Notes under the pieces: generated by a model
What the model was told of the DNA's origin: nothing
The model's input: only the letters and a program-made list of their open reading frames with translations
Database searches by the model: none
NCBI RefSeq assembly: GCF_003233725.1
Contig: NZ_QKQV01000002.1
Location: 124,001-188,000, forward strand
Length of the DNA: 64,000 nt
Reading direction: 5' to 3'
Origin: Mesonia sp. K7
Lineage (GTDB): Bacteria; Bacteroidota; Bacteroidia; Flavobacteriales; Flavobacteriaceae
Part shown: one piece after another, positions 28,917-30,998 of the stretch
How positions within the stretch are numbered: the first letter of the stretch is position 1
Layout of the letters: each line of letters starts with the position of its first letter
Position numbers and translations under genes: made by a program

Positions 28917-28947
28917 AAAAATACCCTTTATTGGGTATTTTTTTTTT
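28917..28947 (+). terminator. terminator after the E1 gene
   Basis: AAAAATACCC, a 6-nt loop, GGGTATTTTT and a T tract: a perfect 10-bp stem. Nearly identical to the hairpin at 30486, so the peptide/oxygenase unit is bracketed by twins. Confidence 0.92.
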
Positions 28948-28999
28948 GCCTTTTTAGGATTAGTTTTATTGTAAACTATTTAATCATAAAATCATTATT

Positions 29000-29203
29000 A
29001 TGAAAACACTGAAAAAAAGTCAAATCAAATCGAAAAAGATTAATGTAAATTCTTCAACCATTGCAAAAGGAGTTGGAGCAATTGCTTTAGTAGCTGCAAT
29101 GGGTGCTTGTACACCTTGTGATAGTGACACTACTCGTTACGGTGATCCTGCAAGAGCTAGCGGAAGTGACTATGATGTTACTCGTTACGGTGATAGTTGT
29201 TAA
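29000..29203 (+). CDS. 67-residue peptide with TRYGD repeats, candidate modified-peptide precursor
   Basis: The N-terminal 23 residues are basic and leader-like (MKTLKKSQIKSKKINVNSST), resembling leaders of Bacteroidota modified peptides. A short hydrophobic run follows (GVGAIALVAAMGA), then CTPC and a hydrophilic tail with two copies of TRYGD (residues 45-49 and 61-65) in the contexts DTTRYGDP and DVTRYGDS, ending in Cys67. The 12-nt gap to the JmjC-type oxygenase implies co-expression. Two readings: (a) precursor whose repeated Arg/Tyr/Asp core is hydroxylated by the oxygenase; (b) lipoprotein, since MGAC could serve as a loose lipobox at Cys37. The hydrophobic run is short for a signal peptide. 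No family is recognised. Confidence 0.72.
   Translation: MKTLKKSQIKSKKINVNSSTIAKGVGAIALVAAMGACTPCDSDTTRYGDPARASGSDYDVTRYGDSC
29131..29194 (+). repeat. two 16-bp direct repeats coding for TRYGD
   Basis: TACTCGTTACGGTGAT occurs at 29131-29146 and, identically, at 29179-29194, a 48-bp (16-codon) period. Identity at third codon positions suggests recent duplication or gene conversion of the core unit. Confidence 0.85.
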
Positions 29204-29215
29204 ACTTAGAACAAC

Positions 29216-30448
29216 ATGAAATTTTCTGAGAAAAATACAGATTGGTTATTGCACCCTATTACCAAAGAAGATTTTATTGATAATTACCTCGAAAAAAAAT
29301 ACTTGCACATCTCTAATGACTCTAGAGGGAGAGAATACTATAGTTCTTTACTCAGTAGAGGTAAATTAGATTTATTTTTAAATGAGCAGTCAGTAAAATA
29401 TCCTAACATTAAATTAGTTGGAGTGGATGATGATTTCAAACATTCTGATTACACTGATAATGAGGGTAACATCCAAGTGTCGAAACTATACAAGTATTAC
29501 AGCGAAGGTGCTACCATTAATGTAAATGGCTTGCACCAATACCTACTTGATCTTAAAGAGTTGTGCCAATCTCTTACTAAAGAGACCTCGCACAAATACC
29601 AAACTAATATTTACTGTACACCTAAAAATTCGCAAGGTTTTATCACCCATTACGATTCTCATGACGTAATTGTTTTACAAGTTCATGGAACCAAAGAATG
29701 GGAAATTTATGATGATCCTGTAAAATTACCTTTAAAAGGAATTGAAGAATTTGAGAAAGGGATGCAACTTAATCCTACACTCAAAAAGACACTTACCTTA
29801 AAAGAAGGTGAACTATTATATATTCCTAGGGGTGTGATGCATAATGCAAGAACAAAAGATGAGTCTTCTATACACATCACTTTAGGTCTTATTGGTACCA
29901 CATACTACAACTTTATGGTTTCTATTATCAAAGACAAACTTATAAATGTAGAAGGATCGAGAAAGTATTTGCCTTTTGGCTTTTTAAATCATGAAGACCT
30001 TAAAAAGGAAATGGAAGAAAAGTTAAATGAAATATTAGAAGTGTTAGCCACAGAAGATATCAATATTAATCGGGACATTGAAAGAGTCAAAGCAGATCGC
30101 ATTAAAAATCAATCTAATCTTGTTCTCAACCAACTAGAGCTTATCGACAATATGCTAGAAGAAAAGCTCGATATAGAAAAATCAGTATTTAGGCTCAAAC
30201 AAAATATCATTACTTCAGCTAAAATTATTGGCGAAGAATATATTCTGTCAGCAAATGGTCAAGAGCATAAATTTCCAGATTATATCAAACCTTGTTTTGA
30301 TATTATTTTAAATGCAAAAGCTTTTTCGCAAGAACATTTAAAAGAATATTTAGACGAAGAAGGTATATCGGTTCTCTTCGAATATTTAATATGTGAAGGT
30401 CTTGTGGAAATCACCGATACAAAAAAATCACTCTTAAAAGTTGGATAG
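29216..30448 (+). CDS. JmjC/cupin-4-type 2-oxoglutarate and iron dependent oxygenase
   Basis: Protein of 410 residues related to the ribosomal oxygenase group (bacterial YcfD, an arginyl hydroxylase; human MINA53 and NO66, histidyl hydroxylases). The iron triad is complete: H145 and D147 in GFITHYDSHDVIVLQVHGTK and H209 in LYIPRGVMHNA, followed by SIHITLG. NIYCTP at 131-136 matches the family's strand before the first ligand. An all-helical segment (about 255-335) and a winged-helix-like C-terminus (about 345-408) follow, similar in layout to the dimerisation and winged-helix parts of ROX enzymes. Its gene lies 12 nt after the TRYGD peptide and ends before a terminator, so the peptide is its likely substrate. 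Confidence 0.85.
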   Translation: MKFSEKNTDWLLHPITKEDFIDNYLEKKYLHISNDSRGREYYSSLLSRGKLDLFLNEQSVKYPNIKLVGVDDDFKHSDYTDNEGNIQVSKLYKYYSEGATINVNGLHQYLLDLKELCQSLTKETSHKYQTNIYCTPKNSQGFITHYDSHDVIVLQVHGTKEWEIYDDPVKLPLKGIEEFEKGMQLNPTLKKTLTLKEGELLYIPRGVMHNARTKDESSIHITLGLIGTTYYNFMVSIIKDKLINVEGSRKYLPFGFLNHEDLKKEMEEKLNEILEVLATEDININRDIERVKADRIKNQSNLVLNQLELIDNMLEEKLDIEKSVFRLKQNIITSAKIIGEEYILSANGQEHKFPDYIKPCFDIILNAKAFSQEHLKEYLDEEGISVLFEYLICEGLVEITDTKKSLLKVG

Positions 30449-30485
30449 CACCACTTAAACATAAGATTATCAGTAAATTAAATAT

Positions 30486-30514
30486 AAAAATACCCAGTAC
30501 TGGGTATTTTTTTT
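30486..30514 (+). terminator. terminator of the peptide/oxygenase unit
   Basis: A perfect 26-bp palindrome, AAAAATACCCAGT with its complement, followed by a T tract. It shares its 10-bp stem AAAAATACCC/GGGTATTTTT with the hairpin at 28917. Confidence 0.92.
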
Positions 30515-30569: not shown

Positions 30570-30998
30570 ATGAAAACAAATGAAAATAGAATTTTATTAT
30601 TTCTCTTTTTATTGTTATGTGTTGTCTTTATGAGTCCATATACTCATATGGTAAAGGCGGAAGAAAATGGAATTTCTTCCTACGAAAACATACAATCAGA
30701 TTGGAGCGAATGGAAAACTACCTCCTGCTTTAAATATTTAAATTATCGTGTAAAAAAGGGAGAAACAGCAAAAAAATGGTATATCGAGTTTAAAAACAAT
30801 TACAACCAAAACATATCGATGTCTGTAACCATAAAAAACGGCTTTGGTGGTGATCGCTCGACAATCAAATCAGGGGAAACTAAAAAATCATATTATTTTA
30901 CAGATGTAGAATATGCATCAAGAATAGATTTTGTCGTCGATAAAGTAAAATTTAATGACACCAGTTGGAGCGGTCCCTACGCCGAATGCGATTATTAG
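30570..30998 (+). CDS. small secreted protein of unknown function
   Basis: Protein of 142 residues with a signal peptide (about 1-30, hydrophobic LLFLFLLLCVVFM, likely cleavage after VKA) and a mature domain of about 112 residues that looks all-beta: WYIEFKNNYNQNISMSVTIK, FVVDKVKFNDTSW. Two cysteines (C53 and C140) could form a disulfide joining the ends of the domain. I recognise no family. It lies downstream of the peptide/oxygenase pair behind a terminator, so it has its own promoter. Its leader region copies that of the TRYGD gene in layout: same terminator stem, 53-56 nt to the start, and ATTATGAAAAC at the start. A functional link is possible but not shown. Confidence 0.75.
   Translation: MKTNENRILLFLFLLLCVVFMSPYTHMVKAEENGISSYENIQSDWSEWKTTSCFKYLNYRVKKGETAKKWYIEFKNNYNQNISMSVTIKNGFGGDRSTIKSGETKKSYYFTDVEYASRIDFVVDKVKFNDTSWSGPYAECDY

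Follow-up and report, generated by a model that had tools for sequence, protein, structure and literature searches.

An aspartate-repeat peptide paired with an NO66-like JmjC oxygenase in Mesonia sp. K7 and in related loci of several bacterial phyla

Organization of the locus

The window, that is, the whole 64,000-nucleotide stretch of the Mesonia sp. K7 genome analyzed here, encompasses a two-gene unit on the forward strand. As proposed originally, an open reading frame (ORF) for a 67-aa peptide (29000..29203) is followed, after a gap of 12 nt and in the same reading frame, by a gene for a 410-aa oxygenase (29216..30448). The peptide, considered a precursor-like lipopeptide on the basis of its ORF and of the related peptides encoded beside oxygenase relatives, starts with a putative leader or recognition motif, KTLKKSQIKSKK (residues 2-13; 29003..29038), that was delineated from the AlphaFold2 model and its DSSP assignment and fits the loose leader pattern only. 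It is followed by a hydrophobic segment with a lipobox, MGAC, that includes Cys37 (29069..29110), and by two core units, DSDTTRYGD (29120..29146) and DYDVTRYGD (29168..29194), defined by the analysis of residue spacing in the cores. The TRYGD pentamer indeed occurs twice, at a spacing of 16 residues, and the DNA repeats starting at 29131 and 29179 are exactly identical over 16 bp. Given its basic and long N-region, the hydrophobic segment and the lipobox Cys, the peptide has the features of a lipoprotein, and such a signal within the peptide itself could explain why no transporter gene is adjacent. Neither Pfam nor NCBIfam contains a match for the window peptide at E≤1, and the matches of 10 related peptides are weak throughout, all of them short of the curated cut-offs and about half to Tat-signal models; no second copy of the peptide was detected in the same genome at E≤10.

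The second gene encodes an NO66-like 2-oxoglutarate/Fe(II) oxygenase of the JmjC_2 family (PF08007; E=3.6e-24 in the Pfam search), as judged by Pfam, PDB sequence and fold searches; among the Pfam and NCBIfam models, it matched those for JmjC_2 and cupin domains and no MNIO model. The predicted iron site, H145 and D147 of the HxD motif (29648..29656) together with H209 (29840-29842), is borne out, with the three ligands invariant in the 35-row alignment of the window protein and in all four alignments made. YcfD, the bacterial member invoked originally, turned out not to be the nearest known relative: in the search of PDB sequences, NO66 (E 5e-18), MINA53 (2e-15) and Bacillus subtilis YxbC (7e-11) come far ahead of YcfD (0.6), and the fold search with the window model also places NO66 and MINA53 first, with YcfD behind. 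For the model of a related oxygenase from a gammaproteobacterial pair of the Tat type (L055), VIA-align gives Z scores of 28.5 for NO66, 27.3 for MINA53 and 19.9 for YcfD. NO66 aligns with residues 131..525 of the L055 read-through model with an rmsd of 5.0 over 388 residues, including the C-terminal winged helix, and the alignment of the window model with NO66 spans 442 columns and runs through the catalytic and winged-helix domains end to end. The window enzyme is thus closer to NO66 (RIOX1 in humans) and MINA53, the nearest solved structures, than to YcfD/RoxA, the arginine hydroxylase of L16, although the latter shares the JmjC and winged-helix fold.

The C-terminal winged-helix domain of the oxygenase (residues about 325-399; 30188..30412) has its strands first and its helices after in the AlphaFold2 model, an RRE-like order. 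Homology of this domain to PqqD was considered and rejected, with hhalign probabilities of 0.5-1.8% indicating no sequence relation; the VIA-align listing consists of JmjC proteins only and is silent on any relation to RREs.

A pattern scan identified terminator-like hairpins on both sides of the unit, at 28917..28942 and 30486..30511 on the forward strand; the scan gave three matches against 0.9 expected, two of them being the second hairpin on both strands. The two hairpins have nearly the same stem, with AAAAATACCC/GGGTATTTTT in common. The original prediction that the unit has its own terminators holds as far as the presence of a hairpin at each flank is concerned, but the upstream one probably ends the preceding dehydrogenase gene. 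On the 3' side of the unit, a 142-aa secreted-looking protein with only sub-threshold matches in Pfam and NCBIfam is encoded at 30570-30998. The dehydrogenase and sigma-factor genes that flank the unit are separated in all 14 congeners that have both, lying about 150-310 kb apart on one contig in 5 of these and on different contigs in the other 9, so that no clean empty site is readable in the congeners.

Distribution of the oxygenase and its peptide partners

The distribution of the oxygenase gene is patchy. Counting the source genome each time, the gene is confined to 1 of 16 genomes within the genus, and relatives were detected in 4 of 299 genomes (E≤1e-10) and 6 of 397 genomes (1e-25) in two draws from the family, and in 7 of 395 genomes of the phylum. 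A scan of contigs yielded 444 relatives; the best 80 of them were retained and, together with the window and three loci from the family draw, make up a set of 84 loci that is, by this selection, biased toward near relatives.

An Asp-rich peptide is encoded near the oxygenase in 65 of the 84 loci, which belong to seven phyla (Bacteroidota, Pseudomonadota, Myxococcota, Acidobacteriota, Chloroflexota, Actinomycetota and, with one locus, Candidatus Rokuibacteriota); its gene can be upstream of, downstream of or divergent from that of the oxygenase. In this count, L007, which starts inside the oxygenase gene, and L039, which has about 170 bases upstream of it, figure as loci without a peptide, and L004, with its short acidic-tailed peptide, was left out. 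The peptide-oxygenase pair is a real unit, and similar pairs in several phyla seem to have been little described so far: among the matches listed in a search of the open-licence PMC literature, none describes PF08007 enzymes with Asp-repeat substrates that bear a signal.

The typical peptide consists of an N-terminal TLxxxQ/DI motif, a lipobox or twin-arginine-like signal and Asp repeats, often of the form DxDx5D. A strict leader pattern, [TSV]L.[DEPSM].[DEQ][IMVL], is present in 42 of the 65 peptides (shuffled sequences: mean 0.53, maximum 4). Six peptides owe their detection solely to visual inspection or to scans that score leader or Tat patterns; among the 59 found without such patterns, the strict leader occurs in 37 (shuffled mean 0.48, maximum 3) and a loose version of it in 52 (shuffled mean 12.8, maximum 23). 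The window leader, TLKKSQI, conforms to the loose pattern and fails the strict one. Some of the curated peptides begin at an upstream start codon and are perhaps too long at the N-terminus, and one (L034) is perhaps too short. In the 84-locus set, each of the 15 peptides from Bacteroidota contains a lipobox-like [AGST]C past the hydrophobic segment, and 41 of the 50 peptides from other phyla show an RR pattern ahead of it, the pattern being a loose one that takes in at least one peptide (L044) without a hydrophobic segment. Neither a lipobox nor an RR signal was found in eight peptides of Chloroflexota and Actinomycetota nor, by eye, in a Bacteroidota peptide from a later draw (L086:1112-1384), which combines the leader IDLSQDEL with a DG-repeat tail and is without a clear signal peptide.

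The association is also apparent from position. When peptides with the strict leader pattern, a hydrophobic segment and an Asp-rich tail were sought in the same 1.2 Mb around the oxygenases, 38 such peptides, in 33 loci, were located no more than 1 kb from the oxygenase and three farther away; these three are additional members of the family, from L041 and L052, loci that also hold near ones. The class defined without the leader requirement, which is the one that accommodates the window peptide, is not specific (93 near vs 119 far). No neighbor gene is common to most of the Asp-type loci among ORFs of at least 110 aa within 8 kb on each side (top 22 clusters): the widest cluster covers 12 loci, 5 of them Asp-type, and one cluster of 8 consists of the peptides themselves. 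In six Bacteroidota Asp-type loci (L003, L012, L019, L058, L076 and L080), the window not being one of them, a gene of a response-regulator-like family precedes the oxygenase gene by 0.7-4.5 kb. Two or three distinct Asp-repeat peptides accompany a single oxygenase in L017, L020, L023, L031, L037, L041, L052 and L074, which suggests several substrates per enzyme; L015 (7926-10345) encodes two tandem, slightly overlapping oxygenase frames and one Asp-type peptide.

The enzyme family is not limited to Asp-rich substrates: 19 of the 84 loci are without an Asp-rich peptide, and 6 of these have NHLP/Nif11-type ORFs within 6 kb. A later draw of seven new loci (L086-L092), inspected within 1.5 kb, added two Asp-type loci (L086, with the DG repeats, and L092, the peptide of which is identical to that of L006), two with NHLP-type precursors (L087 and L089) and three with neither type (L088, L090 and L091), L090 and L091 matching the catalytic part only. 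Altogether, NHLP/Nif11-type precursor ORFs occur near the oxygenase in L056, L060, L061, L068, L070, L082, L087 and L089; transporter-like genes, judged by eye, are concentrated in the NHLP-type loci, several of which have them in common, a multi-gene RiPP setting unlike the two-gene Asp units. Another possible RiPP cluster is found at L004 (428-3061), where a distant JmjC gene lies between genes for an ATP-pyrophosphatase-like protein (QueC-like by eye) and a GNAT-like protein (by eye), and a 45-aa peptide with an acidic tail is encoded upstream. In the tree of the oxygenases, from which L007 and L083 were excluded and in which the NHLP label of L081 stands for shared neighbors rather than for a peptide found by pattern, the window protein groups with those of L005 and L006 (support 100/100), and the 15 Bacteroidota Asp-type rows cluster at 91/80, under the starred support level.

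NO66 and MINA53 are named histidine hydroxylases of the ribosomal proteins L8 and L27A in the titles of their structure entries. As the best matches of the window enzyme in both fold and sequence, they could be taken to suggest a ribosomal oxygenase that acts on a ribosomal protein, with the peptide an unrelated neighbor. The co-conservation of the peptide across phyla, the presence of the gene in a single genome out of 16 in the genus, unlike that of a housekeeping modifier, and the predicted docking of the leader on the enzyme (see below) make such a role highly improbable.

Aspartate repeats and the candidate target

The pentamer TRYGD, originally seen as the core, is not in itself the unit conserved among the related peptides; that unit is D-x-D-x5-D, which both window units fit exactly. 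This motif is present in 38 of the 65 cores, against a mean of 5.4 and a maximum of 13 in shuffled sequences, with the caveat that related sequences inflate such counts. The commonest Asp-Asp spacings in the cores are 2 and 6, and the residues enriched next to Asp are S, T and A on the preceding side and S and P on the following side. That all cores contain Asp is in part a circular finding because Asp richness was the main criterion by which the peptides were selected. The absence of other residues is independent of how the peptides were chosen: 12 of the 65 cores are without Arg, 39 without His, 28 without Tyr and 30 without Cys, and 9 of the 12 Arg-free cores are among the 15 from Bacteroidota.

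These patterns bear directly on the nature of the modified residue. Each window unit contains one Arg, and YcfD has the same JmjC fold, in line with the original suggestion that a YcfD-like enzyme hydroxylates the Arg of TRYGD. This idea fails because, in the two closest relatives (L005 and L006), Thr or Ser replaces both TRYGD Arg residues and the Asp residues of both window units are kept; 10 other cores also lack Arg, and YcfD itself is matched at an E value of 0.6 only, so that a modified Arg is hardly to be expected. The histidine specificity of NO66 and MINA53 likewise differs from what would be required here, given the many cores without His. On comparative grounds, Asp would be the likelier target than Arg.

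There is precedent for such chemistry in RiPPs. PesHI, an MNIO with a partner, is reported to beta-hydroxylate peptide Asp (PMC13060819), and SmaO is also linked to Asp beta-hydroxylation in a RiPP (PMC13097080); the proposal made here shares the reaction with both and, compared with PesHI, involves a different kind of enzyme. For biphenomycin-type RiPP clusters, PMC12257519 reports one hydroxylase that is cupin-like and one predicted to be of the JmjC type (BpmG/PbsQ), a similarity to the present case at the level of the enzyme, but these are multi-enzyme antibiotic clusters and the target of PbsQ is ornithine.

A different outcome, namely a cross-link, for instance between Cys40 or Cys67 and Tyr47 or Tyr63, or another oxidation on Tyr, Thr or Pro in place of simple Asp hydroxylation, is conceivable but rather unlikely. 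The window core contains three Cys along with the two TRYGD Tyr, and PMC12636437 cites a RiPP in which a 2-oxoglutarate enzyme forms a Cys-Tyr cross-link; the same cross-link paper is referenced by Bregman et al. (PMC12710340) for the RiPP-like contexts of bacterial JmjC homologs. Since Cys and Tyr are missing from so many of the cores, a Cys-Tyr cross-link cannot be the chemistry common to the whole set.

Predicted leader docking and a proposed model of peptide maturation

Since the two window genes share a reading frame, the natural read-through of peptide and oxygenase was modeled, with the stops as Gly. The AlphaFold2 alignments had 35 rows for the window and 33, in a different alignment, for L055, and in each of them only two other rows span the peptide. 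In the window model (mean pLDDT 84.8), residues 1-10 are at 95, residues 11-20 at 69 and residues 18-72 below 50; the DSSP string of leader residues 2-13 is E---HHH-EEEE. The corresponding segment of L055, QTLSDADISTER (residues 14-25), has an identical DSSP string, with mean pLDDT of 87 and 85 in the leader blocks and values below 50 for residues 38-133. In this correspondence, TLKKSQIKSKK of the window is aligned with TLSDADISTER of L055. Since a strand assigned within so short a leader requires a partner, docking on the enzyme is the natural reading; the pLDDT values and DSSP assignments are consistent with a leader that docks on the oxygenase, perhaps on the C-terminal winged helix. Along with the co-conservation, this predicted docking motif supports the original notion of a RiPP-like pairing between a leader-bearing peptide and a 2-oxoglutarate oxygenase.

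Leader docking with an unplaced core, as in these models, could also be reconciled with a small acidic metal-binding lipoprotein for which the oxygenase serves as a metal- or oxygen-responsive chaperone or anchor that binds the leader without modifying the peptide. The iron ligands, invariant in the four alignments, imply catalysis, and we consider this possibility quite improbable.

The interpretation that we somewhat favor is a dedicated peptide hydroxylase that would modify Asp before export of its lipoprotein-like substrate. The peptide is very probably the dedicated substrate of the oxygenase, as suggested by gene pairing, the leader and the structure prediction. Its first 13 residues, with the TLKKSQI motif, would, judging from the model, probably dock on the oxygenase, with the C-terminal winged helix as the most likely site and in a role like that of a RiPP recognition element. 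Conservation of the DxDx5D repeats tips the balance slightly toward hydroxylation of their Asp residues by the JmjC domain, with the beta carbon as the probable position. From its sequence features, the peptide is expected to be exported after modification and lipidated at Cys37, which would leave a 31-residue acidic lipopeptide on the envelope, with Tat-like export in other phyla. Capture of the leader in the cytosol, followed by Asp hydroxylation and then by export and lipidation, fits the anatomy of the peptides: both Fe(II) and 2-oxoglutarate are found in the cytosol, and the Tat route is well adapted to substrates completed before export. As for function, binding of a metal, such as Ca or Fe, at the cell surface by the array of hydroxy-Asp residues is a tentative guess prompted by the acidic spacing.

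DUF2063/DUF2282 systems are linked to MNIO metallophores, the 'bufferins'. The RRE-associated precursors in these systems carry, like the peptides described here, an export signal, which in their case replaces a clear recognition motif (PMC12710340), but the signal is of the Sec type and the enzyme belongs to another family, whereas the present units combine a PF08007 enzyme with a recognizable leader motif and Asp units. Another parallel is provided by Bregman et al. (2025; PMC12710340), who describe fusions between PF08007 and RRE-like domains from fish and algae and place the closest bacterial JmjC homologs, at about 30% identity, in RiPP-like contexts. The fusions resemble the window enzyme in that a PF08007 protein has a domain with the bbb-aaa, RRE-like order of strands and helices; they are fish and algal proteins, and the available sections of that article give no Asp-repeat precursor or recognition motif.

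More speculatively, the pairs might represent an exported, RiPP-like class that cuts across phyla, in which NO66-type oxygenases with a leader-binding winged helix write beta-hydroxy-Asp into DxDx5D repeats and the metal-binding products leave the cell by the Tat or lipoprotein route. If so, human NO66 and MINA53 would descend from bacterial peptide-maturation enzymes, with the winged helix a relic of leader recognition, and the pairing would bear on the origin of eukaryotic ribosomal oxygenases. The common leader motif would provide a handle for finding substrates in genomes, and an orphan branch of JmjC oxygenases would gain genetically linked, testable substrates, in what may be a minimal system, of two genes, that hydroxylates a peptide prior to its export.
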